Shown piece by piece: positions 75 through 22,952 of a stretch of DNA of 25,054 bases. Position numbers and translations under genes: made by a program. The notes under the pieces are model-generated. The model had not been told where the DNA came from. It was given only the letters and a program-made list of their open reading frames with translations, and did not search any database. Source of the DNA: a virus; the IMG/VR virus record IMGVR_UViG_3300045303_000023, positions 1-25,054 of that record. One strand, written 5' to 3'. Each line of letters begins with the position of its first letter. Position 1 is the first letter of the stretch.

Positions 75-229
75 ACGATGGCGTTGTGCTTGACTGCTAT
101 CGTCTAGCAAAATATTACGGCCGCAATCCACGTGAATTTTTGGAGATGCCTTTCTCCGAGGTAATGCGTCATATTGAGTGGACAGGGAAGCTTGAGCGAA
201 AGCTGAGGCCAGCGGACGATGCCGACTAA
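53..229 (+). CDS. Tail assembly chaperone, -1 frameshift extension
   Basis: The -1 frame is open from the window edge to TAA 227-229. A TTG at 20 is a possible independent start, but no ribosome binding site is visible there. The likelier route is slippage at 53-59: the two Phe codons re-pair one base back and the next codon read is TAT at 59. The extension is acidic at its end and contains YYGRNPREFLEMP and a Trp/Leu-rich helix (VMRHIEWTGKLERKL), which is typical of the short GT-type extensions that bind the tape measure. It overlaps the tape-measure start by 11 bases. The role is inferred from gene order and the slippery site. Confidence 0.5.
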   Translation, partial: FFYTRDIDDGVVLDCYRLAKYYGRNPREFLEMPFSEVMRHIEWTGKLERKLRPADDAD

Positions 230-2222
230 TTTTGACAGCGATGCCATGCTCAGCTTCGTATCGGAGCTGACAAAACGGTTTGCTGATCTAAAAAAGGAAA
301 TGGCGAATACAGCTGAGCAATCCGGAGCGGGATTGCATAAGACAACGGATGAGACTGAGAGGTTTGGTAAGACCGTAGAGAAGCATACTAAAAATATTGC
401 AGGAATGAGGGCTGAGACATCTAGTCTCGTTGATTTGTTAAGAGGACCAGTTGGGATCGCTTCCCTTTTTACTGGCGCTGCGTTGGCTGTAAATAAGTTT
501 GTCCAAGGCGAATTGCAACTGCGCAACTTCTCTACGGATGTTGGTCTGTCTGCAGCGGCTGTTGCTAAATTGCGAACGCAATTATCTGCAGCCGGGATTG
601 ATAGCAAGACGGCCGATCAGCAGATCAGCGCCCTTACATCGAAGCTCGATAGCATCAAGACGTTGACAACCGCGTCTCCGGTTTACAAGGACATCGCTGC
701 CAACGATCCGATCCTAGCGAAGCAGCTCCTTGATTCCGAGAAGGTTGGCAATCGTTTGGAATCAATTCGATTGATAACGGAAAAGCTCAACAGGACCGGT
801 GAGCCGCGATCAACTCAATACACTCTTGAACATCTTGGCCTCAACGCATCGACGGGGAAGGCGTTGGGGAAGGATACCAAGGATTTGGTCATGCCTTGGA
901 TTTATTCTGAGGCTGAGTTAGAGGAGTACAATAAGAACTGGACAAATTTGACTACCACAATGACGAATGTTTGGGGTGCTGCTATGATGGGGATGACAGC
1001 AACTTCAAATAAGTTGATGGAAGATGCAAACAATAATGCGAAGCAAATTCGGGAGACGTATCAAAAACTGAGAGATGATTTTGAAGGCAAGGGAAAGTCT
1101 GACAGTTCAATTTTTGGATCAAAGGGTTTCTTACCGAGCAAGAAAGAAATTGAGAGCTTGTTTGGCGGTGGCGAAAAGCCATCAACATTCTCTGATAGGT
1201 TTGGTCAATGGGGTGATGATGAGGGAGAGGATGGTGCTAACCTTCCTAAGCATGCGAAGCCTCGATCATTCTCCCCAGATAGCGTGAAGGACGAATTGGA
1301 GCTTGAGAAGGACCAGAACAAAACTCTCCAAGACATTCGTGATGCGTTGACTGATAAGATGGGAGGAGGAGCTGGTGCTGGAGCCAGCGCACCGTCCAGT
1401 GGTTCGACTGCGAGTGGCAATACTCCCGGCACGCCCAATCGGGTAGCGACGGGAGCTGATGGGCACGTCCCTGAGACAACAAGCGATCCGGCCTATGGTG
1501 GTACTCCCGGTGCGCCTACAGGATTAAACCGCGACAAATTCCGTAAGGAGCTAGAGGCGAAGCCTTGGCTGAAAGAAAAGATTTTGGGGATTGCGTCCGG
1601 TGAGAATAAGGACCCAACTGCTAACCTAGCCGTCATTGAGAGTATGATGAACCGCGCACAAGATCGCGGGACAAGTCTTGAGCAAGCCGCGAAGCTCGTG
1701 CGCGAAGGCAAGGGTGGTTATTACGCTGGCTATGATCCCGGTGGGTTACGCAATGCTAAGACGCGAGCAATGATTGAAGCCAATCTTGAGAAGGCTCTTG
1801 GTGGCTCGAATGTTAGCGACTATGCAACTGACAATGCGTCTGGAGGTTTAGCACAGAGAGATAAATACAAACCTGAATTTCAATTCACAAAGGAAATTGC
1901 CAAGGAAAGTTTTTTCAGAGGGAGAAACAATACAGCCGCTCACAGAGCTTGGCTTGCGAGCATAGAGGAGGAGAAAAAGAAGCAAGCTTCAGAAAAGAAT
2001 AAAGAGAACACAGCAGCAATTGATAAGTCTCTTGTTGCTTCCCGCGATCTAGGTGGGGCAAAGATCAAGGTTGATTTCACAGGTGCTGTGAAGGATGGCA
2101 AGTCGAGTGATGCAAATGTCCTCGATGAAGGTCCATTTAAGAAATTAAAAATTCATCGGTCACCGCAAGCGCCAGCAGCGGGTGGTGGCGTAGCAGACTT
2201 CAACCGCTTCGCTTTCGAGTAG
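219..2222 (+). CDS. Tape-measure-like tail protein 1 with a lysozyme-like C-terminal domain
   Basis: This 667-residue protein begins with a heptad-rich, probably coiled-coil region (about 5-70) and a short hydrophobic stretch (GPVGIASLFTGAALAV, about 77-92). A conserved helical block follows (LQLRNFSTDVGLSAAAVAKL onward to about 270), as in rhizobial-type tape-measure N-termini. A Gly/Ser/Thr/Pro-rich linker spans about 380-435. Residues 440-600 look like a cell-wall hydrolase: IASGENKDPTANLAVIESMM puts a candidate catalytic Glu at 462, before a GGYYAGYDPGGL loop. A tail-borne enzyme that opens peptidoglycan during DNA injection fits. The next gene is a paralogue over the first 300 residues with a different enzyme domain. 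The start ATG overlaps the chaperone extension. The exact hydrolase family is uncertain. Confidence 0.7.
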   Translation: MPTNFDSDAMLSFVSELTKRFADLKKEMANTAEQSGAGLHKTTDETERFGKTVEKHTKNIAGMRAETSSLVDLLRGPVGIASLFTGAALAVNKFVQGELQLRNFSTDVGLSAAAVAKLRTQLSAAGIDSKTADQQISALTSKLDSIKTLTTASPVYKDIAANDPILAKQLLDSEKVGNRLESIRLITEKLNRTGEPRSTQYTLEHLGLNASTGKALGKDTKDLVMPWIYSEAELEEYNKNWTNLTTTMTNVWGAAMMGMTATSNKLMEDANNNAKQIRETYQKLRDDFEGKGKSDSSIFGSKGFLPSKKEIESLFGGGEKPSTFSDRFGQWGDDEGEDGANLPKHAKPRSFSPDSVKDELELEKDQNKTLQDIRDALTDKMGGGAGAGASAPSSGSTASGNTPGTPNRVATGADGHVPETTSDPAYGGTPGAPTGLNRDKFRKELEAKPWLKEKILGIASGENKDPTANLAVIESMMNRAQDRGTSLEQAAKLVREGKGGYYAGYDPGGLRNAKTRAMIEANLEKALGGSNVSDYATDNASGGLAQRDKYKPEFQFTKEIAKESFFRGRNNTAAHRAWLASIEEEKKKQASEKNKENTAAIDKSLVASRDLGGAKIKVDFTGAVKDGKSSDANVLDEGPFKKLKIHRSPQAPAAGGGVADFNRFAFE

Positions 2223-2226
2223 GGCA

Positions 2227-4203
2227 ATGGCAACTGCTGATTTTGATAAAGATGCCTTACTGACTTTCGTCAACGAGTTGACAACTCGTGTTGATGAATT
2301 GAAGAAGGAGCTTGTGTCGCTAGGCGATCAGTCTGGCACCGGTCTAAAGAAAGTATCAACAGAGCTGGATAAGATTAAGCAGTCTGTTGATGTTGATACA
2401 AAATCAATCATTGCAATTAAAGATCAGAGCAGCGGTTGGGTTAATGTTCTGAGAGGATCAGTTGGCTTAGGAGTTGCCTTTTATTCTGCCGGCAGGGCAA
2501 TGGAGAATTTTGCTCAAGGTCAATTACAACTACGAAATTTTGCGACGGATGTTGGATTGACGACGACAGCGATTGGCGGTTTAAGAACGCAGATGTCTGC
2601 GGCCGGGATTGATACCCAGACGGCTAATCAACAACTCAGCGCTCTCGCGTCGAAGCTGGATAGCATAAAGGTCTATCAAACTGCTTCCCCGGTTTACAAG
2701 GCGATTGCGGCGAATGATCCGGCCTTGGCCAAGCAGCTCCTCGATGCGGAGAAAATTGGTAACCGGATGAAGTCAATTGACGCGATCCGTGAGCGATGGA
2801 ACCAACCGAATAATCCGCGATCACGATTGTATCTTGGCCAAGAGCTAGGTGTCAATCAATCGACCATGGAGGCTCTTAATCGAAATCGAACAGGCTTGGT
2901 CCAGCCTTGGGAATACAGTCAAGAGGAGACGGACAAATATAATAAAGATTGGACCAACGCGATGAACACCCTGCAAAACTATTGGGGTGCGACTTTGATG
3001 ACGATGGTTGGGCAGACGAATCAGTTCATTGAGAATACAAAAAGTGAATTTGGCGGCCTCACTAATTTCTTTGGTAAATTGAAAGCTGACTTTGAAGGAC
3101 ACGGTGAAGAAGGAAAACAAATTTTTGGACCAAAGGGAATTCTACCAAACAAGGAGGAGCTTGGTGGCTTGTTTGGATCAAAAGGCTTCTTGCCAGATAC
3201 GAAAGAAATGAAGGATGCGTGGGAGAGCCTGAAGAAAAATATGTCCATGGAGGCGCATGCTTCGGTCCCGACTGGTGGTGAGACTTTACTTGAGGGTGAT
3301 GCTTCCTTCTCTCAACGGTTTGGTGGTTGGGGTAAGGAGAAACTAGACACGAAGAAAGATTCAAATGAGTTGCTGATTGAAATTCGTGATTTGATGAAAG
3401 GCAATGCGGGACCGGCTGGTGTTGCGGGAGCTGGGTATGGAGGCAGCGGAGGAGACGGTTCAGGATCAGGCACGAGCAGTCCCGGTGGCCCTGCGCAGCT
3501 GAGTGATGAGTCCGGGAAGGCGATTGATGCGGAGACAATGAAGCAAGCTGAAGCTTTAGGCAACAAAGGCGATGTTGCTGGCTTGCAGAAATTGTTTGCG
3601 CAAAAGGGATACCGGATGAGTGGCGCGGCTTGCGGCATCGTTGCTAGCAAGTATGTCCGCTCTGCTGGCTTCCAACCTCCGAAGGCTGGTGCCATCGCTA
3701 CGTCTTGGCACAACTGGGGTGAGAAGCTTAATCCGAATGACATCAACGCTCCCGGTCATCCCTTTGGTAGTATGGTCGGAACGTACTGGCATCGACGTTA
3801 TGGCGGAAATCAAAATGAGGTTCTGAGTCCCGGTCAAACTGGCGGTCACGTTATGACGCTTGTTCCGGGAACGTATGATCCAAAAACGAATACGGTTGAT
3901 ACAGTCGATCAATATGGTTACAGCCATGGTCGCCGTAAGCTTGGTGATTTGGATTTGCGGTATGCTGGCAAGTCGGCTGTTGAGCAAGCAGAGGCGAGAA
4001 GGAAAGGTGGCCAGCCAGATCAGCAAGATGCTCGTGACAAGATTGATAGCTCCTTCCCCGGTATGCGAAAGGACAAGGCTAAGGTCGATGTTGAATTCAA
4101 TGGCGTGCCAAAAGGCGTAAAGACAGAAGCGGCTCTGATGGAGCAAGGAGTATTTAGCACGCTGAACATTAAGAAGTCACAGCAGCAAGCAACGCCGAAT
4201 TGA
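2227..4203 (+). CDS. Tape-measure-like tail protein 2 with an NlpC/P60-like C-terminal domain
   Basis: This 658-residue protein is a paralogue of the preceding one. Shared blocks include LQLRNFATDVGLTTTAI, SAAGID, SALASKLDSIK, TASPVYKAIAANDP, LAKQLLDAEKIGNR and YNKDWTN. After a Gly/Ser-rich linker (about 395-425) the C-terminus differs. SGAACGIVASKYVRSAGF supplies a candidate catalytic Cys near 469, and GGHVMTLVPG a candidate His near 541, resembling NlpC/P60 or CHAP-type cysteine peptidases. It would be a virion-associated endopeptidase complementing the lysozyme-like partner. Its ATG is five bases after the upstream stop and it ends two bases before the hub gene. Whether both proteins line the tail tube, or only one does, cannot be told from sequence. 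Confidence 0.68.
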   Translation: MATADFDKDALLTFVNELTTRVDELKKELVSLGDQSGTGLKKVSTELDKIKQSVDVDTKSIIAIKDQSSGWVNVLRGSVGLGVAFYSAGRAMENFAQGQLQLRNFATDVGLTTTAIGGLRTQMSAAGIDTQTANQQLSALASKLDSIKVYQTASPVYKAIAANDPALAKQLLDAEKIGNRMKSIDAIRERWNQPNNPRSRLYLGQELGVNQSTMEALNRNRTGLVQPWEYSQEETDKYNKDWTNAMNTLQNYWGATLMTMVGQTNQFIENTKSEFGGLTNFFGKLKADFEGHGEEGKQIFGPKGILPNKEELGGLFGSKGFLPDTKEMKDAWESLKKNMSMEAHASVPTGGETLLEGDASFSQRFGGWGKEKLDTKKDSNELLIEIRDLMKGNAGPAGVAGAGYGGSGGDGSGSGTSSPGGPAQLSDESGKAIDAETMKQAEALGNKGDVAGLQKLFAQKGYRMSGAACGIVASKYVRSAGFQPPKAGAIATSWHNWGEKLNPNDINAPGHPFGSMVGTYWHRRYGGNQNEVLSPGQTGGHVMTLVPGTYDPKTNTVDTVDQYGYSHGRRKLGDLDLRYAGKSAVEQAEARRKGGQPDQQDARDKIDSSFPGMRKDKAKVDVEFNGVPKGVKTEAALMEQGVFSTLNIKKSQQQATPN

Positions 4204-8198: not shown

Positions 8199-9287
8199 AT
8201 GCCATGGACAACGCCAACATTGCGGACTGTACGTGAAACCGTTCGCGGTGAAATAACCACAAGCCTAGGCCGGGCATCGTTTACTGGTAACAGCGTCTTG
8301 CGCGTTATAGCAGATGCGACTGCCGCGCTTTGCCATCTCACATTACGCTATATTGACTGGCTCGCATTACAGTTCTTGCCGGATACGGCAGAGCATGAAT
8401 GGCTAGATCGTCATGGTGATATTTGGCTTGTCAATTCGGATGGAACTGTTGGCCGTAAAGGTGCAACATTATCTTCAGGTTCAGCGACAATGACTGGGAC
8501 TATTGGAATTCCCGTTCCTACAGGAACACAATTGACTGATGGTACAACGACCTTTGAAACAACAGAGGATATTTTTATTGGGAGCGAAGCAACTCCAGTT
8601 GCCATTCGGGCAATTGGCCCTCCCGGTTCTTCCAGTAATCTTGAGTCGGGCACTACGTTGAGTTTCATATCTGGGATCGCAGGAGTTGATGGCTCTGTTA
8701 TCGTTGTCGAGCTACTAGGTGGAACGGACGCGGAGACGGACGATGAGTTGCGAGCGAGGGTGCTGCGTCGCATCCAGCAGCCGCCAATGGGCGGTGCGGC
8801 CTATGATTATGAGGCTTGGGCATTAGCCGTACCGGGAGTTACAAGAGCTTGGACAGATAGTGAGATGGGGATTGGAACGGTAACAACTCGATTTATGATG
8901 GATGATTTGCGAGCGGATGTTGGCGGCTTTCCGCTTGATAGTGATATTGCGATGGTCGATGCATACATTGATACCAAGAAGCCAGTTTCTGTGAAGGACA
9001 GTTTTGTTCTTTCACCAATTCCATATCCGATAGATTTTAATATTGTTGGTTTGAATCCGGATACTCCTTCTGTACAGGCAGCCATCGAGGAAAATATTCA
9101 GCAGATGTTATTCCTTTATGCTTCGCCCGGACAGACGATATTTTCAGCTTGGAAATATTCAGCTGTCATGGCGGCAGCTGGCGTCATATCATTCAATATG
9201 ACGGATAACCTAGATGATGTAATGCCTAGTCCCGGTCACATGGCTGTGCTTGGTGATATTTATTATACGGTTGCGATGGTGGAATGA
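8199..9287 (+). CDS. Baseplate wedge protein J, Mu gp47-like
   Basis: The 362-residue protein has the signature of baseplate protein J / Mu gp47 (T4 gp6-like wedge). N-terminal helices are followed by EHEWLDRHGDIW, a beta domain with GTIGIPVPTGTQL, and GGTDAETDDELRARVLRRIQ at about 175-194, with GGAAYDYEAWALAVPGV just after. Length matches the family. It forms the wedge ring joining hub to periphery. Its ATG follows the gp46 TAA with no gap, and its stop overlaps the next gene by ATGATGA. Confidence 0.88.
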   Translation: MPWTTPTLRTVRETVRGEITTSLGRASFTGNSVLRVIADATAALCHLTLRYIDWLALQFLPDTAEHEWLDRHGDIWLVNSDGTVGRKGATLSSGSATMTGTIGIPVPTGTQLTDGTTTFETTEDIFIGSEATPVAIRAIGPPGSSSNLESGTTLSFISGIAGVDGSVIVVELLGGTDAETDDELRARVLRRIQQPPMGGAAYDYEAWALAVPGVTRAWTDSEMGIGTVTTRFMMDDLRADVGGFPLDSDIAMVDAYIDTKKPVSVKDSFVLSPIPYPIDFNIVGLNPDTPSVQAAIEENIQQMLFLYASPGQTIFSAWKYSAVMAAAGVISFNMTDNLDDVMPSPGHMAVLGDIYYTVAMVE

Positions 9288-11939: not shown

Positions 11940-14363
<2,424 letters not shown>

Positions 14364-14364
<1 letters not shown>

Positions 14365-15289: not shown

Positions 15290-16092
15290 TGCTGCCGGGC
15301 ATTACTCCCGCGCTGCTGGGTGGCGCTCCTCCTCCGCTAATTGTTGAAGCACTTCTCGTTGCTGGTGGTGGCGGTGGCGGAGGCAGACCCAACTCCGGTG
15401 GGACCGGAACGGGAGCTGGCGGTGGCGGAGGTGGTGGCGTTCTAAACTCCACAGGACCGTTACCGAAGAAAGCATACAGCGTTGTTATCGGTCCCGGAGG
15501 AAACGGCGCAACGGCTGGCGTTGCCGCGACTAATGGCGGCAATACAACGGTCACGGATTTCTCTGCGGCCATTGGTGGTGGACGTGGTGGCTTCTATGAT
15601 GTCTCGCTTGCCTATGTTGATGCGGCTAGTGGTGGGTCCGGTGGCGGTGGTCGTGGCCTCGGTGCGGGAGGAGCTGGCACCGCAGGACAGGGCAACGCGG
15701 GAGGCAATGCGACGGGTGCCCCTGCGTCGGCTTATCCCGGTGGCGGTGGCGGTGGTGCGGGAGGAGCTGGCACCGCTGGAGCGGGATCGACAGGCGGCAA
15801 TGGCGGCATCGGTCTATCATTTTCAACCTCTGGCGCGGCAGTCATATACGCAACGGGTGGCATAGGTAACGTTGTTGCTGGCGCGGGTGGAACGGTTCCA
15901 CCGGGATATGGCGGACCTGGCAGCGGTGGTCATGCGAGAGAGACTGGCGCAAACGGCAATCCCGGCCTCGCTGGAATAGTGATCTTCCAATACGCAGGGA
16001 CGGTTGCGAAGGCAACAGGCGGGACGATTACAACGGTTGGCGGAAAGACGCAACACACCTTCACAACAAGCGGAACATTCACGGTACTGTAA
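15289..16092 (+). CDS. Glycine-rich adhesin-like fibre tip protein
   Basis: The preferred start is the ATG at 15289, which shares its A with the previous TGA, giving 267 residues. The sequence is dominated by Gly runs (LLVAGGGGGGG, GAGGGGGGGVLN, GGGGGGAGGAGTAGAG) between short beta segments, as in glycine-rich domains of phage fibre tips and the polyglycine-II adhesins of T-even phages such as S16 gp38. It ends with a beta domain (GIVIFQYAGTVAKATGG, TFTTSGTFTVL). It is probably the variable receptor-binding tip working with fibre 3. No homology to a specific gp38 was established, and Gly-rich composition alone is not proof. Confidence 0.62.
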   Translation: MLPGITPALLGGAPPPLIVEALLVAGGGGGGGRPNSGGTGTGAGGGGGGGVLNSTGPLPKKAYSVVIGPGGNGATAGVAATNGGNTTVTDFSAAIGGGRGGFYDVSLAYVDAASGGSGGGGRGLGAGGAGTAGQGNAGGNATGAPASAYPGGGGGGAGGAGTAGAGSTGGNGGIGLSFSTSGAAVIYATGGIGNVVAGAGGTVPPGYGGPGSGGHARETGANGNPGLAGIVIFQYAGTVAKATGGTITTVGGKTQHTFTTSGTFTVL

Positions 16093-16400
16093 TGGAAATA
16101 AAAACAATCACCGCAGTTTGTTTCGTAGTGGTGCTGCTTAGTGCTGCGATGGTCTATTCAAAAGGCGAGGAGCCATTACGTCCTGTTTGCGTTACCGATG
16201 AAGACCGAGTTCATATCCGGGCACAGGTTCTTGCGGCCGTCGATGAAGCCTTTAGAGACAACATGAAGCATCTTTTTACAAGCTGGCTTAAGGACGCTCG
16301 TGATCAACCTAATCGTGCGTCTGCCGGACTGCAGAATTCAATCGTTGCCTATCAACGTGCCAGAGCCGATGCGTTGAAATGGTCACCAGCGAGTTGCTAA
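16092..16400 (+). CDS. Small membrane-anchored or secreted protein of the lysis region
   Basis: The 102-residue product has an N-terminal hydrophobic segment (ITAVCFVVVLLSAAMVYS, about 5-22) that could be a signal peptide or a single membrane anchor. A soluble helical domain with two Cys residues (VCVTDED and the C-terminal PASC) and amphipathic helix VHIRAQVLAAVDEAF follows. N-in/C-out topology with a helical periplasmic part would suit an i-spanin, but it is short and shows no lipoprotein partner. Start and fibre-tip stop share TAATG. Function unknown. Confidence 0.6.
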   Translation: MEIKTITAVCFVVVLLSAAMVYSKGEEPLRPVCVTDEDRVHIRAQVLAAVDEAFRDNMKHLFTSWLKDARDQPNRASAGLQNSIVAYQRARADALKWSPASC

Positions 16401-16401
16401 C

Positions 16402-16407
16402 AGGAGG
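16402..16407 (+). promoter_or_regulatory. Strong ribosome binding site AGGAGG
   Basis: AGGAGG lies six bases upstream of the ATG at 16414. Most other plus-strand genes rely on stop/start overlap and weak sites, so this is the clearest independent initiation signal in the operon. It supports the 16414 start. Confidence 0.75.
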
Positions 16408-16413
16408 ATTCAA

Positions 16414-16713
16414 ATGAAACGGATGATCCTTGGAATTGTTGTTCTGTCGTTTCTTGTTCCGGCTTCAGCCGAAGCGCGACGCACTCACGTGCGCATCTAT
16501 AAGGAAGCTCCCGCGCAGGAGCCAGCACGTGCGGTCCCGCTCGCTGTTATTCCGCCTCTTGCCATGGCCATGGACTTGATCCGTAGAACGTCTTGCGATC
16601 CTACCATCGCGGTAGCGACTGGCCCGGACGATCCCGGCTTCACCTCCCATCCAGTCGGCAACTACCTCATCCCCGCGATCTATCGCAGCGAGTGCGGAGC
16701 CAAGCCAAAATGA
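16414..16713 (+). CDS. Secreted hypothetical protein (99 aa)
   Basis: An N-terminal signal peptide is clear: MKRMILGIVVLSFLVPASAE with likely signal peptidase I cleavage after an ASA motif near residues 17-19. The mature part is short, Pro-rich in the middle (APAQEPARAVPLAVIPPLAM) and has two Cys residues (TSCDP, SECGAK) that could form a disulfide. A full AGGAGG site precedes it. Its stop overlaps the ATG of the double-psi-barrel gene. It probably acts in the periplasm during lysis or adsorption; no catalytic motif is visible. Confidence 0.65.
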   Translation: MKRMILGIVVLSFLVPASAEARRTHVRIYKEAPAQEPARAVPLAVIPPLAMAMDLIRRTSCDPTIAVATGPDDPGFTSHPVGNYLIPAIYRSECGAKPK

Positions 16714-17144
16714 CATTACGTCTCAAAGGTAAAGTCTCATGGTTCGGTGGCCCCAATGATATGGGTGTGAAGCCAGATGAAGGACTGGCGTTCATCTATG
16801 AAATCGAAATGGCGCCGCATTTGTTCTTGCCAACGCAGCCGCCCAACACAACTGGCTTGGCAAGACGTTTAAATCCTTATGTGCATTTCATCGCATGCCG
16901 TTGGGACTATGATTTGTATCCCAAGGAACAACTCCTAAAAGAAATTGCAATCATTCGTGCCGTAAAGACGCAAGTTGTCTTGACCGCTTTTCCAGCTGAC
17001 TGGGGACCGCATAGCGACACAAATAGAGTTGCGGACATAAGTGAAGGCTTGATGTTCGATCTAGGTATCACGACGGATGATGAGGTGGAGGTTGCTCTGC
17101 TGAGCGAGTTGCGGCCAGCTGTAATCAAAGGGCCACTGGTTTGA
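16710..17144 (+). CDS. RlpA-like double-psi beta-barrel protein, candidate lysis or peptidoglycan-active factor
   Basis: The ATG at 16710, overlapping the previous stop as ATGA, gives 144 residues; the longer upstream frame is a shadow. GKVSWFGGPND at about 7-17 resembles the Gly-x-Ala-Ser-Trp-Tyr-Gly start of RlpA-like double-psi barrels, and PADWGPHSDTNRVADIS at about 94-111 resembles their second hallmark (Asp-x-Gly-Pro...Arg-x-x-Asp-Leu-Ser). DDEVEVALLSE closes the fold. Such barrels include lytic transglycosylases and expansin-like wall-loosening proteins. No signal peptide is visible, so if it is an endolysin it would need a holin. Catalytic activity is inferred from fold resemblance and position at the end of the late operon. 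Confidence 0.6.
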   Translation: MTLRLKGKVSWFGGPNDMGVKPDEGLAFIYEIEMAPHLFLPTQPPNTTGLARRLNPYVHFIACRWDYDLYPKEQLLKEIAIIRAVKTQVVLTAFPADWGPHSDTNRVADISEGLMFDLGITTDDEVEVALLSELRPAVIKGPLV

Positions 17145-17279: not shown

Positions 17280-17316
17280 GGCCGCTGCGCTCCCTCCGGG
17301 TGCAGCGGCCTTTTTT
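17280..17316 (+). terminator. Rho-independent terminator of the late operon
   Basis: GGCCGCTGC (17280-17288) pairs perfectly with GCAGCGGCC (17302-17310) across a 13-base loop, followed immediately by six T residues (17311-17316). The T tract overlaps the TAA stop of the last minus-strand gene, so the two converging units meet here. Read from the minus strand the hairpin is not followed by T residues, so it should work only for the plus strand. Confidence 0.88.
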
Positions 17317-17554: not shown

Positions 17555-17664
17555 AGCCGTTCCGAAAAGTTTGGACAAGGTAGCGTTTCTTTCTTGACTG
17601 GCTTCCTTGGTCCGCGTCTGCGGATTTGAACGCGGGATTTCTTACTGCGTTTGCGCTTCTTCAT
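17551..17664 (-). CDS. Very basic 37-residue peptide
   Basis: An ATG at 17664 has GGAG five bases upstream (GGAGCTGAAATG) and overlaps the upstream stop (ATGA); its own stop overlaps the next start in the same way. The product is MKKRKRSKKSRVQIRRRGPR followed by KPVKKETLPCPNF and four more residues. More than a third of residues are Lys or Arg, suggesting nucleic-acid or membrane-surface binding. No family is recognised. Double coupling and a good ribosome binding site argue that it is real in spite of its size. Confidence 0.55.
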   Translation of the reverse strand: MKKRKRSKKSRVQIRRRGPRKPVKKETLPCPNFSERL

Positions 17665-18128
17665 TTCAGCTCCAATGCGATCCGTTTCTGCCATGGGATA
17701 AAGGCCGGTGGGTCCGTATCGAAATCCGCGATGAGAGGCCATAGCGTCATGGCCTCGCCCCGTAACATAGTGTCGTCCGTCCCTCCTCCTCCCATAAGGG
17801 AGGGATAGGCCACGGATGGGCCGATATAATCCGTTTGCAGCGGGGTTCTACCATGGTGCGGAGCGTTCCCGTTGGCGTCTGGGGTAGGAGGAGGTGCCCG
17901 GACGGCCGCACGCCTACCCGGACGGTTATCCCAGCAATGGCCTACCCCATGCCAATAGAGCCATTGGCGCGGGTATCGCGTCTGAGCTTGGGCCTTGGTC
18001 AGACATCCTCCGTCAACGTCCGCTCCGAAGGCGAATTCTGCGCCTAGCCAAACGCCAACGATAGTCATGATAGAAATGACGATGATAGTTATGATGACCC
18101 AAAATGGTATGCGCATGCGATCCCCCAT
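17661..18128 (-). CDS. Membrane-anchored hypothetical protein with Cys/Trp/His motif
   Basis: The ATG at 18128 gives 155 residues; a TTG one codon upstream and an ATG at MRIPFW are alternatives. A strong membrane segment (IPFWVIITIIVISIMTIVGV) is followed by CLTKAQAQTRYPRQWLYWHG and GHCWDNR, a compact motif with two Cys, several aromatic residues and His. The motif looks like small extracytoplasmic proteins common in rhizobial genomes, but no function is known. The C-terminal half is Pro/Gly-rich and probably disordered. The stop overlaps the basic peptide's start. An inverted repeat and a short leader frame lie just upstream. Confidence 0.6.
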   Translation of the reverse strand: MGDRMRIPFWVIITIIVISIMTIVGVWLGAEFAFGADVDGGCLTKAQAQTRYPRQWLYWHGVGHCWDNRPGRRAAVRAPPPTPDANGNAPHHGRTPLQTDYIGPSVAYPSLMGGGGTDDTMLRGEAMTLWPLIADFDTDPPAFIPWQKRIALELK

Positions 18129-18189
18129 CAAAAGAAAAGAACCCGCACGGAGGTTGTGGCGCTTTGTGTGGGAGTGTTTGGGCTTCCAT
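18013..18189 (-). CDS. Possible leader ORF with strong ribosome binding site (doubtful)
   Basis: On the minus strand GGAGG lies eight bases before an ATG at 18189 and opens 58 codons (MEAQTLPHKAPQPPCGFFSF...). The last two thirds overlap the membrane-protein gene in another frame and become His/Arg-rich, as expected of a shadow frame. The start region, however, lies outside that gene and has a better ribosome binding site than the gene itself. It may be a leader peptide controlling the downstream gene, or chance. The ribosome binding site is inside the arm of the inverted repeat described separately. Confidence 0.25.
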   Translation of the reverse strand: MEAQTLPHKAPQPPCGFFSFDGGSHAHTILGHHNYHRHFYHDYRWRLARRRIRLRSGR

Positions 18190-18235: not shown

Positions 18236-18331
18236 TCAGAAGCCTCCTCCAGCGATGAGCCAAATCATGATGGCGAACGCAACAAAAATAATTGCGCCAT
18301 CACGTAGCTCGACTGAAGTTGGCTTACGCAC
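18236..18331 (-). CDS. Small membrane peptide (31 aa)
   Basis: A GTG at 18331 inside the end of the upstream gene opens a 31-codon frame: MRKPTSVELRDG followed by AIIFVAFAIMIWLIAGGGF and TGA at 18238-18236. The charged start plus one hydrophobic helix and Gly-rich end is characteristic of single-span peptides. No good ribosome binding site is visible, so expression would depend on coupling to the upstream gene. It fills the otherwise empty stretch between 18209 and 18324. A 6-bp hairpin (AGCGGG/CCCGCT, 18214-18234) follows its stop. Confidence 0.35.
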   Translation of the reverse strand: MRKPTSVELRDGAIIFVAFAIMIWLIAGGGF

Positions 18332-18911
18332 GCGCCATGTCCCAAGCAGATTTCTGCTTGCGACGACGACGCATCATCAACGCAGCTCCACCGAGTGCGC
18401 TGCCGAATAGCCACACCGCTCCGGGGAGCGGTGTTTCAGCACTTGTACTTAGGTTGCCGCCATAGCCAGCATCGACGCCAGCGTTGCCGGTGATGAGCAA
18501 GTAATAGCTCCCACCGCTTAGTACCGCTGAACCGCCAAACACTTGGCAGTTCGGGATACCAACGCATGCCGATGCTAGCTCCGGACCTAGCACCACAAAG
18601 TCGTCACCACCACCGGGCACGCCATTGGGTCCGTCATTCACTACCGATCCTTGAAAGTTGGTAATGAATTGCGGATTGCCTGACGCAAACGTATTGGTGG
18701 CAAACGCAATGGTCAGGACCTGCGCACCGACTAGATCGAAAGTGTAGATGTCAGCGAACAAACCTGAACCTCCTCCTCCAGTACCGGGATTGGTATTGGA
18801 GAAGGCACCGGCACCAGATGTGGGGTTGGTCCCCAGACTGGATACGGTGTCTGCCATCGCACCCGCCGACATGGCGAGCACGGTGGCAGCAGCAAGAAGA
18901 AGTTTCTTCAT
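18324..18911 (-). CDS. Secreted protein with VPLPA/PEP-CTERM-type sorting signal (A)
   Basis: The ATG at 18911, with GGAG six bases upstream, gives 195 residues. Residues 1-20 (MKKLLLAAATVLAMSAGAMA) are a signal peptide. The mature part is Gly/Asn/Thr-rich beta structure with one Cys pair (SACVGIPNC). The C-terminus at 160-185 is a three-part sorting signal: TPLPG, a hydrophobic helix (AVWLFGSALGGAALMM), then RRRRK, and a ten-residue tail. This matches the VPLPA variant of PEP-CTERM signals, which host exosortases process to release or anchor proteins, usually together with exopolysaccharide. A phage copy would depend on the host exosortase. Neighbour B carries the same signal. The function of the mature part is unknown. 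Confidence 0.75.
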   Translation of the reverse strand: MKKLLLAAATVLAMSAGAMADTVSSLGTNPTSGAGAFSNTNPGTGGGGSGLFADIYTFDLVGAQVLTIAFATNTFASGNPQFITNFQGSVVNDGPNGVPGGGDDFVVLGPELASACVGIPNCQVFGGSAVLSGGSYYLLITGNAGVDAGYGGNLSTSAETPLPGAVWLFGSALGGAALMMRRRRKQKSAWDMARA

Positions 18912-18937
18912 AGGCACTCCTTGCAAGATTGCCTCAA

Positions 18938-19603
18938 TTAAGCCGCAGCGATTGCTGCAGCTTTCTTACGGCGACGACGGGCCAAGAGAGATAGCCCACC
19001 GATGCCGCTTCCAAAGAGCCAGACAGCTCCCGGAATTGGTGTCTCACCCGGAGGGTTGCTGAACGGTGTTCCGTTCGGTCCGAGTGGGATAGTCTCCGAA
19101 ACAAGACTGAAGTTGTTCTGATTACCGGCCCAGTCGATCTTGAATGCGGGATCCCATGCTAGGAAATTTCCCGAAGCCAAGTTCAACGTGAAGTCGATGT
19201 CGATCACTGTGCCGGAAGCGAGTGCTGGTGTACTTGCGGCACCAGTGTTTCCGAAACAGAAGAACCCGCCACCATTGCTACAGCCGTTAGAGTTCAATCC
19301 AGTACTTTGAAAGGTAGCACCAACAAGCGTGGTGCTTCCTGACGAAATAGTAGGAAGGTTCGGAGTGCTGAAAGCAAAGGCATTGATGCCGCTGCGGCCA
19401 AGTCTTGTATCGGTGCCGACAACATTGATGCCGGTGATTTCGACTTGGAAGGTCGCAGAGGTTGAGTTGAGGGCACCACCGATGATTGAGAAATTATAGG
19501 TGAGCCCTTCGGTAGCAAGGTCAGGTCCAAGCGTCGCAGCTTGTGCCGTCCCCACTCCCACTGACAGCGAGATTGCTGCCAGCATTCCAACAAGCTTCTT
19601 CAT
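18938..19603 (-). CDS. Secreted protein with VPLPA/PEP-CTERM-type sorting signal (B)
   Basis: The ATG at 19603, preceded by AAGGAAAC, gives 221 residues. Residues 1-22 (MKKLVGMLAAISLSVGVGTA plus QA) are a signal peptide. The mature region is beta-rich (YNFSIIGGALNSTSATFQVE, VIDIDFTLNLASGNFLAW) with a Cys pair in a Gly-rich loop (GCSNGGGFFCFG). The C-terminus has TPIPG at about 188-192, AVWLFGSGIGGLSLLA, RRRRKK, then an Ala-rich tail. Apart from the sorting signal and signal peptide there is little similarity to protein A, so the two look like different cargo for the same pathway. A three-hairpin leader precedes it and protein A follows 26 bases downstream. Confidence 0.75.
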   Translation of the reverse strand: MKKLVGMLAAISLSVGVGTAQAATLGPDLATEGLTYNFSIIGGALNSTSATFQVEITGINVVGTDTRLGRSGINAFAFSTPNLPTISSGSTTLVGATFQSTGLNSNGCSNGGGFFCFGNTGAASTPALASGTVIDIDFTLNLASGNFLAWDPAFKIDWAGNQNNFSLVSETIPLGPNGTPFSNPPGETPIPGAVWLFGSGIGGLSLLARRRRKKAAAIAAA

Positions 19604-20575: not shown

Positions 20576-20846
20576 CTTTATTCTCCATCCTGTTGCTGTG
20601 ATATTGTTGTAACCGCTTTAGGAGTTTGTCGTCATCCTTGATGCGGTATGGGGACTCATCACAAGTCTCCTTGTGTACGCTACGCCTACCAAGAGCCAGT
20701 GTTACACCCAGCTCCTCTGCCCGTCTGAACAAAGTCTCCCGGCTAGTTCTCAATCTTATTTCCATCGTGTTGATTGAGATTTGCAATTCACCCTTTGATT
20801 GCTGGACGATCATCTCATCTTCTTCACGCGTGAAATGTCTTTTCAT
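20553..20846 (-). CDS. GcrA/Myb-type helix-turn-helix protein
   Basis: The ATG at 20846 overlaps the preceding TGA (ATGA) and gives 97 residues. FTREEDEMIVQQSKGELQIS, then TMEIRLRTSRETLFRRAEEL and GV, follow the Phe/Trp-x-x-Glu-Asp ... Arg-x-x-x-Leu-Gly pattern of GcrA N-terminal and Myb/SANT-like DNA-binding motifs. The GcrA C-terminal zinc-like region is absent. The rest is charged and probably flexible. It sits immediately downstream of the GcrA-like gene, so the two may have arisen by partial duplication or may compete for the same sites. Confidence 0.5.
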   Translation of the reverse strand: MKRHFTREEDEMIVQQSKGELQISINTMEIRLRTSRETLFRRAEELGVTLALGRRSVHKETCDESPYRIKDDDKLLKRLQQYHSNRMENKDGETTSE

Positions 20847-21253
20847 CAAGGTCCAGTCCTCGCTCGCTTGTAGTGGTATTCACAATAGGATGAATTCTCC
20901 ATGTGCGGCTTTCCACAGAACCAATAATCGCGGTCACCGAAAGGCCAGCGGCAATGGTGTGGCTCTAGATCGAAGAAGCTAATGCCATCCTCTCTCGCAA
21001 TATGAATTGGAGGATCGTATTTGCTCCCGACTAAAGGCGCAACCACAACCAACTGTGGTTGTGGTTTAATCTTTGGTGGGGTTGGCTTCAGCTCTACCTT
21101 CCGCCTTGGACCTTTGTACAGACCTAGCCGGTGCAGCTTTCCTATCACTGAATTCTTTTTACGTTTTAATTTCTTGATGATGTATGATAGTCTCTCACCG
21201 CTCTTGTAAAGCTGCTTCAGCATGGCAATCTCCTTATCGCTCCACTCGCTCAT
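20846..21253 (-). CDS. gcrA: GcrA-family transcriptional regulator
   Basis: The ATG at 21253 overlaps the helicase stop as ATGA and gives 135 residues starting MSEWSDKEIAMLKQLYKSGE, the GcrA-like start (Trp-Thr/Ser-Asp-Glu...Leu). NSVIGKLHRLGL at about 35-46 is the GcrA recognition helix region. The C-terminus has CRWPFGDRDYWFCGKP and SYCEYHYKRAR, the conserved Cys-x-Trp-Pro-x-Gly-Asp...Phe-Cys-Gly...Tyr-Cys-x-x-His segment. In Caulobacter GcrA binds sigma-70 and activates promoters methylated by CcrM at GANTC. A phage copy could redirect host transcription. A Pro/Lys-rich linker joins the domains. GGAGG lies 11 bases upstream. Confidence 0.85.
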   Translation of the reverse strand: MSEWSDKEIAMLKQLYKSGERLSYIIKKLKRKKNSVIGKLHRLGLYKGPRRKVELKPTPPKIKPQPQLVVVAPLVGSKYDPPIHIAREDGISFFDLEPHHCRWPFGDRDYWFCGKPHMENSSYCEYHYKRARTGP

Positions 21254-22668
21254 ATGATCCATTCCCTCCAAGTATCTCCATTGATGACGCCAGCCATATT
21301 GATCTTGTTGCGGAGAGCTTCCAAGAATTTCATCTCCACAGTATTGGGGACGATGAGATCAACGTAGTCAACTGGACGCTTCTTATCGACGCCTTGAACA
21401 CGCTGCTCAGATTGATCACGATGCTCTAGATTATTCTTGGAGGAGTAGTACACCACTAGGTCCGCCATGTCCCATGTGCGGCCTCGCCCACCCGCGTCCG
21501 GAGTTGCGACGATGTAGGGTGTATCATCCCGCGTCTTGAAGTTTCTTTCTTCCTGCTCCCGCGTATTCAGATTGCCACCCCAGAAGCGAGAGACTTTGCA
21601 CTCAAAATGTTTTGCGAGAGCTTCGGAGACTTTCCGAATGTCTGTGTCGTAGCTGCACCAGATCACAGCCTTGCCTTGGTACTCCTCTAGCAAGTCGATT
21701 AGCTCCTCAGTCCTGTGCTCTTTGATCTCATGCTCAGCTCCCATCTCATCCTTCACGTGACCGCAAAGGATTTGATGGAGACGTAACATCTGCGATATGA
21801 CGATGGTCGCGGTGACATGTTGACCATTCGCCAGCTGCGTGGTCGCAAACTCCTTCACCTCCTTGTAAGCCTTCTCCTGCTCTGCGGAGAGCCTCACATC
21901 ACGGATCGAATAGGTGGAAGGAATGTTGGGCCGGAACGGGACGCGGAAGGAGTGCGGTTCAATCAGCGCATGTAGCTCCTCCACATCGCGGTATCCGGTC
22001 ACAATCATAACGCGCCTTCCGCCAAAGAACTCATTGCGCATAATCGCGTAACGTGCACGGAAGGCATAGTAGGACCGGAAGCCCAAGATGTTTGGATCGA
22101 GGAATTCAAATTGGGAGAATAGGTCCAACGGTGAGCGAGGCGTCGCAAGCCCACTCAGTATTCTCCGGAAGGAGGAGAGCGGCTTTAGCCATTCATTGAT
22201 GAACTTGGTCCGCTTCGCTTGCGGGTTCTTAATGACCGTTGATTCATCGACGATGATCATTGCCTTGTTAGTCTTTACAAACTCAATCGCAATCTTTCGT
22301 GCGTCTCCCGGACGCGAGAGAGCTTCCACATTCATAAGGAGAACACGCGGACGTTTAGAAGCAGCCATGAAGCCTATGGCTGCTTTAACCTTCCCGGCTT
22401 GCCAGACGTGGATGAGAAGCCTCGATTGTAAGTCGAGGCTCACATGCTCGCGGATCGCCTCCACCCACGTTTTGTAAACGCCAGCGGGTGCGATCACGAG
22501 AAGGTCTGAAACTGTTCCTTCCTGTTCCAATGAACCAAAGTCGTCAAGCGCGACTTTTGTTTTGCCAGTCCGCATTGCCATGAGAAGAGCGAAAGCCTCC
22601 CGGCCTTTCATCAGCCGGTTGGCTTTCGTTTGATAGTCACGCGGCGGCATCAGCGTTTGATATTTCAT
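21250..22668 (-). CDS. SNF2/DEAD-type superfamily 2 helicase
   Basis: The ATG at 22668 has GGAGG four bases upstream and overlaps the previous stop (ATGA), giving 472 residues. The motifs are in order: Gln-like motif PPRDYQTKA (8-16), Walker A AMRTGKT (31-37), motif Ia LLVIAPAGVYKTW, Walker B IIVDEST (138-144, with DEST in place of DEAH), motif III LSGLATPRSP, and the C-terminal RecA domain with AVIWCSYDTDIRKV, TPDAGGRGRTWDMADLVVYY and motif VI EQRVQGVDKKRPVDY near 421. This fits phage SNF2-like replication or recombination helicases. Length is normal and all motifs are present. Confidence 0.9.
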   Translation of the reverse strand: MKYQTLMPPRDYQTKANRLMKGREAFALLMAMRTGKTKVALDDFGSLEQEGTVSDLLVIAPAGVYKTWVEAIREHVSLDLQSRLLIHVWQAGKVKAAIGFMAASKRPRVLLMNVEALSRPGDARKIAIEFVKTNKAMIIVDESTVIKNPQAKRTKFINEWLKPLSSFRRILSGLATPRSPLDLFSQFEFLDPNILGFRSYYAFRARYAIMRNEFFGGRRVMIVTGYRDVEELHALIEPHSFRVPFRPNIPSTYSIRDVRLSAEQEKAYKEVKEFATTQLANGQHVTATIVISQMLRLHQILCGHVKDEMGAEHEIKEHRTEELIDLLEEYQGKAVIWCSYDTDIRKVSEALAKHFECKVSRFWGGNLNTREQEERNFKTRDDTPYIVATPDAGGRGRTWDMADLVVYYSSKNNLEHRDQSEQRVQGVDKKRPVDYVDLIVPNTVEMKFLEALRNKINMAGVINGDTWREWII

Positions 22669-22952
22669 TTTGCCTCCAGCCATACGCTGATAGGGTGTGG
22701 GCCGCTCCTCTCCTCTCTACGGATACGGAACGGCTCACGGTTCACACGCGCCTTGTACATGAGGCTATTCAGAGCGCCAACAATACGGACGCGGCCATGT
22801 CTTGCCTTCCCATGGATACGAGACGCAAGGTCACTGGTGGTGACCTTGCTCCCGTTCTTTGGAAGATGACTAAACAAGAGCATTTCCGCTCTTGAATAGT
22901 ACAGCTTGCTTTCATTTAGGGCAAAGGGCAAATGTAATTTCCTTCTGCGCAT
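22665..22952 (-). CDS. Small winged-helix-like protein
   Basis: The frame has an ATG at 22952 preceded by AGAG, which gives 95 residues but overlaps the upstream gene by 41 bases; an internal ATG (MLLFSHLPKNG) is an alternative. The segment LYYSRAEMLLFSHLPKNGSK, TSDLASRIHG, RVRIVGALNSLMYKARVNRE and FRIRREERSGPHPISVW has the helix-helix-helix-hairpin rhythm of a winged helix, similar in layout to the wing end of the two paralogous proteins at 22912 and 24448. It is coupled to the helicase start by ATGA. A DNA-binding regulatory or replication accessory role is inferred. Confidence 0.55.
   Translation of the reverse strand: MRRRKLHLPFALNESKLYYSRAEMLLFSHLPKNGSKVTTSDLASRIHGKARHGRVRIVGALNSLMYKARVNREPFRIRREERSGPHPISVWLEAK

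Follow-up and report, generated by a model that had tools for sequence, protein, structure and literature searches.

The known exosortase substrates are encoded in the chromosomes of bacteria that form biofilms and exopolysaccharide. In both the VPLPA-CTERM proteins (TIGR03370) and the PEP-CTERM/EpsH exosortase system (Haft 2006, PMC1569441), a signal peptide is combined with a short proline motif, a hydrophobic helix and a C-terminal basic cluster, and the same elements are found in the two phage proteins described here. Where exosortase/PEP-CTERM genes are dealt with in PMC12642866 they are treated as chromosomal, and at the level of the titles and abstracts listed, no description of phage-borne exosortase/PEP-CTERM substrates was found in the open literature (5.39 million papers). 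In this work, we analyzed a virus record of IMG/VR, 25,054 bases long (hereafter, the window), which encodes two adjoining proteins, A and B, with such C-termini. We consider it probable that A and B are phage-borne cargo using the exosortase route of the host, with sorting tails that are exchangeable and probably host-matched.

The two genes adjoin on the minus strand, B first, with a spacing of ~26 bases. Gene B (18938..19603) encodes a protein of 221 aa constituted by a signal peptide, a ~166-aa body of unknown fold and a VPLPA-like C-terminal tail; it starts at the ATG at 19603 (MKKLVGMLAAISLSVGVGTAQA...), with AAGGAAA a few bases 5' of this codon, and its C-terminus is ...TPIPGAVWLFGSGIGGLSLLARRRRKKAAAIAAA. 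Gene A (18324..18911) encodes 195 aa, with a signal peptide, a predicted FxDxF/PPC-like beta-sandwich body and a VPLPA-like tail; its start codon is the ATG at 18911 (MKKLLLAAATVLAMSAGAMA...), preceded by AGGAG, and it ends in ...TPLPGAVWLFGSALGGAALMMRRRRKQKSAWDMARA. Both proteins begin with MKK and both starts have a Shine-Dalgarno-like sequence. Signal peptides, called by simple rules (heuristic plus hydropathy), are predicted at 19538..19603 for B (site AQA/A) and at 18852..18911 for A, the latter coinciding with a helix at residues 7-13 of the structural model; a hydrophobic N-terminus after MKK and an AxA site are present in A and B, with a best 17-mer of 1.99 and 1.90 on the Kyte-Doolittle scale, respectively, and a second hydrophobic stretch (1.5) lies in the tail of each. 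Both proteins share the ending TP[LI]PGAVWLFGS-hydrophobic-RRRRK. The tail of B (18941..19039) consists of PIPGAVWLF, a hydrophobic segment and RRRRKK, and that of A (18327..18431) of PLPGAVWLF, a hydrophobic segment and RRRRK followed by a KSAWD extension. The degenerate DNA pattern P[LI]P[GA]A[VI]WLF matched the window twice, exactly at these C-termini (19013-19039 and 18405-18431, minus strand; 0 expected), and never in 100 shuffles, and a chance origin of the motif was rejected on this basis.

The initial annotation, made from the sequence, had described two ORFs here with a signal peptide, a beta-rich mature part, a proline motif, a helix and an arginine cluster, and had proposed differing cargo under the same signal. 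The ORFs, the pattern test and the hydropathy agree with this description, the beta-sandwich comes from the model of A, and the exosortase-type tripartite C-terminus (proline motif, hydrophobic helix, basic cluster) is present in both proteins, as seen in the sequences, in the pattern test and in a helix at residues 165-194 of that model. Beyond the arginine cluster, an AW[DPS] element (KSAWD, AWPKY, GAWDD) is conserved in many tails of A and B alike (window 18327-18365; L002, L007, L012, L024, L026). Separately, several homologues in the B position bear a lipobox-like LVSC or MLSC in the signal peptide (L023, 3406-4062; L013, 7440-8132; L019, 2912-3673), where B of the window has LSVGVG; some of these homologues may be lipoproteins as well as tail-bearing.

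The tails had been assigned to the PEP-CTERM/VPLPA type, and of this the VPLPA part is retained, as VPLPA-like. By their residues, TPLPG and TPIPG are variants of VPLPA and not of PEP, and homologues from sister phages pass the cut-offs of TIGR03370 and NF038126, whereas the window proteins miss the thresholds of TIGR03370 and TIGR02595/PF07589. The proposed check of the C-termini with the NCBIfam model TIGR03370 gave 15.8 bits for A and 20.5 for B, below the curated cut-off of 25.35; therefore, both are called VPLPA-like here and not formal members. Protein A reached 29.5 bits over its full length with NF038126 (FxDxF PEP-CTERM), below the cut-off of 50. With PF07589, the Pfam PEP-CTERM model, there was no significant match (7.2 bits for A against a cut-off of 20.7; B unmatched), and TIGR02595 was listed for neither protein in the profile search; A and B thus fall outside PEP-CTERM sensu stricto. 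Among phage homologues, L211 exceeds both cut-offs (32.8 with TIGR03370, 63.7 with NF038126), L198 exceeds that of TIGR03370 (25.6) and L016 that of NF038126 (51.6), and NF038126 matches 19/19 A homologues with E below 1. LPXTG, MYXO-CTERM and similar signals were also considered for these tails and set aside, as their HMMs gave weak matches only.

The gene content identifies the window as a fragment of a contractile-tailed phage, in line with the earlier claim that both proteins are phage-encoded. On its plus strand lie the genes of a contractile-tail module (baseplate wedge, hub, Mu gp48-like), in which the baseplate J-like wedge protein (8199..9287; phrog_6, E 5.5e-61) marks the contig as that of such a phage. 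Upstream of A and B, in the same minus-strand operon, lie a GcrA-family regulator (20846..21271; PF07750, E 2.8e-18, 67.2 bits, cut-off 26.9) and a phage SNF2-type DNA helicase (21250..22683; phrog_62, E 4.9e-90; PF00176). GcrA serves as a marker of host class: it was present in 7/8 alphaproteobacterial genomes and in 0/18 of the gamma/Nitrospira-type genomes tested, so that the host is most likely alphaproteobacterial. GcrA homologues have been reported from Caulobacter phiCbK-like phages (PMC9437464). Naming the host by comparing gpJ, TerL and GcrA with named phages was abandoned, since the matches were distant and pointed to many hosts; likewise, gpJ reached at most 41% identity in 289 alphaproteobacterial genomes. 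Promoter and terminator scans gave counts similar to those of shuffles, the exception being a strong hairpin at 17280-17310, and are no guide to when the genes are expressed.

Around the pair, the convergent small late genes (16092..17144, plus strand) also flank the cassette in sister phages, being 86-92% identical at the amino acid level in L002 by tblastn synteny. One of their products (16593-17144, GKVSWFGGPNDMGV...) remains the neighbour of A/B in phages with a rearranged cassette as well, is 44-89% identical in sister phages and has no Pfam match. A small transmembrane protein, h2 (17661-18131), is located downstream of A in the window and upstream of B in sister phages (L002, 7529); A and B thus change position together with respect to the surrounding genes. 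Elsewhere in the window, two tandem paralogous long proteins (219-4203; 667 and 658 aa), alike in their N-terminal halves and different in their C-terminal parts, adjoin the baseplate hub, and a probable tail-fibre protein with collagen-like GPxG repeats is encoded at 12322-14364.

In viral contigs, 28 loci related to B were identified, and among the more distant of these most match mainly or only at the tail; for A, 8 loci were found in the first search and 32 using an alignment. By tblastn synteny, related soil phages carry the pair at an equivalent site, flanked by the minus-strand operon on one side and the convergent tail/late genes on the other. The pair further extends to unrelated phages, as in G302, whose terminase, portal and large virion proteins differ from those of the window, and in a serine-integrase phage (G312) a homologue of A (L254) lies between the tail sheath and tail tube genes. 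In the latter phage (36380-38309), the two ORFs that follow the A homologue resemble, by eye, glycosyltransferase-type proteins. A sister phage (G293) encodes a terminase, portal, sheath, DNA polymerase I, primase and thymidylate synthase. For G302 and G312, genes were identified by reading the listed ORFs, apart from those assigned with PHROGs or by comparison with named phages. A search of 84,980 bacterial and archaeal genomes returned no close relative, and the full-length chromosomal relatives of A in this set show ~31% identity. Neither protein was matched in INPHARED (50,697 named phage records), nor was a cargo with a PGP-type tail, and an artificial query, made of a phage body fused to a PGP-type tail, found no match in a plasmid search, a result on which no conclusion is based. 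In the bacterial and archaeal genomes searched, the phage-borne FxDxF-type bodies form a group without close chromosomal relatives.

Bodies and tails have diverged very differently, and a larger point than those of the initial annotation emerges: from one phage to another, an equivalent body may bear a swapped tail type. The body of B is 96-99% identical at the amino acid level to those of L002 and L005-L008 (dN/dS 0.02-0.03), and B bodies across relatives retain 96-100% identity at synonymous divergences of up to 1.1 (dN/dS 0.01-0.05); for A bodies, dN/dS is 0.06-0.11. The tails on these conserved proteins are mostly 50-75% identical, and nucleotide identity falls abruptly within the tail to 40-60%, as between L023 and L029, where it drops from mostly 87-100% to 40-47%. 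Conversely, different bodies may carry closely similar tails, those of L013-B2 and L023-B3 being 87% identical in nucleotides. The body of A was found with three tail types, namely PLPxAVWLF, PGPxxGAGLPG and VPEISTWAM. These alignments indicate that tails are exchanged as a module between phages, on conserved bodies.

A census of tails by DNA-pattern scan of IMG/VR found PLPxAVWLF on 80 viral contigs (93 hits) and PGPxxGAGLPG on at least about 80 (at least 86 hits). Among the matches listed, the tail was in frame and C-terminal in 179/179 ORFs (93 PLPxAVWLF and 86 PGPxxGAGLPG), with a basic cluster in 177/179 and, by a simple rule, a signal peptide in 159/179. After removal of the signal peptides, the 129 distinct bodies among the matches listed formed 19 clusters, five of which bear both unrelated tail classes, with body identity reaching 79% across 192 residues. 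Furthermore, in 12/12 independent two-cargo phage groups among the matches listed, one tail class was present on both cargoes (p ~2.5e-4 under independence). This concordance, together with the bodies that bear both classes, implies that the tail goes with the phage whereas the body is independent of it, which is the pattern expected if the host reads the tail. The C-terminus formed by PGPxxGAGLPG, a helix and an arginine cluster (L342-L420), present on at least ~80 soil viral contigs in the same cargo families as PLPxAVWLF, may be an unrecognised sorting signal, and would by analogy be read by an exosortase; the pattern was found in 0/289 alphaproteobacterial genomes, where allowing one mismatch gave control-level matches only.

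The association of the tail with exosortases was evaluated in bacterial genomes. PF09721 exosortases were found in 42/50 genomes encoding the tail and in 35/289 sampled Alphaproteobacteria (Fisher p 2e-24, overstated since the groups differ in taxonomy); the 50 genomes are mostly Gammaproteobacteria and Nitrospira and the background is alphaproteobacterial, so that the contrast is partly taxonomic. Three tail-bearing genomes were alphaproteobacterial, of which one has two exosortases (G002), another has one (G484) and in the third, a fragmented MAG, none was detected (G001); the P[LI]PxAVWLF-type motif is rare in the sampled alphaproteobacterial chromosomes (1/289). No exosortase was found on the 24 related phage records searched, and processing would therefore depend on a host enzyme. 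The exosortase search that the initial annotation had called for gave a negative answer in these phage records and a positive one in most of the bacterial genomes that bear the tail. Its central proposal, that the phage uses the sorting route of the host, appears likely.

Two other accounts of these proteins were weighed against this reading. It is improbable, in our assessment, that the tails are ordinary C-terminal transmembrane anchors that would keep A and B in the inner membrane on its periplasmic side, where they could for instance block DNA injection by other phages, with no sortase involved. The subthreshold HMM scores of the window proteins are consistent with such anchors, in which a hydrophobic helix with a basic cluster looks alike, and the host comparisons linked this phage to no exosortase-bearing bacterium; low scores combined with ordinary anchors were also what the initial annotation had set against its own reading, a combination that does not apply here, since the tail motif is conserved, occurs also in bacteria that have exosortases and is exchanged as a module. 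However, a plain anchor has no need for the conserved PxPxAVWLF motif, yet this is C-terminal in all 93 census hits and is conserved with bacteria strongly enriched for exosortase, and whole motif classes are exchanged, not hydrophobic residues alone. That these contigs derive from a bacterial chromosome or a decayed prophage, with A and B as host PEP-CTERM genes, is hardly credible: IMG/VR contigs are predictions and A has the distant chromosomal relatives mentioned above, but the window bears a contractile tail module, a baseplate and a phage helicase, the sister contigs encode terminase, portal, sheath, DNA polymerase and primase, many related phages carry the pair at the equivalent syntenic site, and a close relative is missing among the 84,980 bacterial and archaeal genomes. 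Misassigned bacterial DNA was accordingly excluded on the window phage genes, the synteny in relatives and the gene content of sister phages.

If A and B are indeed sorted by the host, they would be exported by Sec and retained in the inner membrane by the C-terminal helix; a host exosortase, on reading the P[LI]P[GA]AVWLF-helix-Arg tail, would then cut near the motif, and the body would be transferred to the surface of the cell or to its exopolysaccharide. The tail would act as an exchangeable address tag, so that phages moving to hosts of other sorting specificity could keep the body and gain a new tail by recombination. Once displayed, the body would alter the infected-cell surface, the likeliest effects being a block on the adsorption of competing phages or the binding and remodelling of exopolysaccharide. 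As to the body, the AlphaFold2 model of A (mean pLDDT 71, ~80 in the body) predicts a beta-sandwich at residues 21-158, followed by the C-terminal helix. Its best solved matches are the collagen-binding/PPC domains of collagenase (3jqw_A, Z 11.2, rmsd 2.9, 106 residues aligned), with other beta-sandwiches close behind (Z 9-10); the top Foldseek match has an E of 9.6e-5. The model of B (pLDDT 40) is unusable, and PDB sequence searches with the cargo proteins gave no meaningful match. The body of A is probably not an enzyme but a binding module.

Regarding function, we tentatively entertain superinfection exclusion, in which A and B would mask or bind a phage receptor at the cell surface, as T5 Llp-type lipoproteins do. 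Their position at the end of an operon with GcrA and helicase genes, the binding-type beta-sandwich predicted for A and their presence on phages with differing structural genes are consistent with this role, whereas the very strong purifying selection on the bodies departs from the diversification that receptor-linked proteins are often expected to show, and the location of the A homologue of G312 among tail genes suggests that expression may be late. Alternatively, and we regard this as rather doubtful, the sorted proteins may bind exopolysaccharide and lead infected or lysogenic cells to aggregate or change their capsule, like floc PEP-CTERM proteins. An exopolysaccharide role is plausible since floc formation in some bacteria requires PEP-CTERM proteins (PMC9850573, PMC9012009), and A resembles the FxDxF type of these proteins, its modelled fold matching carbohydrate-binding modules as well as collagen-binding domains. 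On the other side, fold similarity shows no function, and G293 encodes replication genes of its own, with no integrase recognised in the examined ORFs, aggregation being less obviously useful to a purely lytic phage.

Taken together, the differing tags on the same phage protein suggest that the tag is matched to the sorting enzyme of the host, and that the route is used to alter the infected-cell surface. On a broader reading we are evenly divided: unrelated types of soil phage would share a small, shuffled set of secreted bodies with grafted, host-matched tails, the tail class (PLPxAVWLF, PGPxxGAGLPG or PExSTWA) would mark the sorting specificity of the host, and PGPxxGAGLPG would be an unrecognised signal whose enzyme is yet to be found. 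Phages that keep a cargo while exchanging only its tail constitute a natural experiment on the residues read by each exosortase and on the worth of a surface position to the phage; the reshuffling also supplies concrete test pairs of one body with different tails, and the tail class could link uncultured soil phages to their hosts.

Compared with the described systems, the tail of A and B resembles those of VPLPA-CTERM/EpsH systems in that tail-bearing genomes are exosortase-enriched, and differs in being phage-carried, with no exosortase on the related phage records. Relative to VPLPA-CTERM, the motif is TPLPG or TPIPG plus AVWLF, several tails add AW[DPS] beyond the arginine cluster, and the window proteins score below the cut-off. 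A matches the FxDxF family (NF038126) over its full length and two phage homologues exceed the cut-off, but A of the window reaches 29.5 of 50, and the phage members bear three tail types and lack close chromosomal relatives. Surface-exclusion lipoproteins of the T5 Llp type are small, encoded by the phage and fixed to the host envelope through an N-terminal lipid; A and B are also small, phage-encoded, putative envelope proteins, but with a C-terminal sorting tail, a likeness of description in which no sequence relation is claimed. Phage-encoded LPXTG proteins of Gram-positive hosts are phage cargo that uses the host sortase. The proposed use of a host enzyme by A and B would be parallel to that of the LPXTG proteins, with the difference that the hosts are Gram-negative and the tail classes are swapped, sortase and exosortase being unrelated enzymes (PMC1569441).
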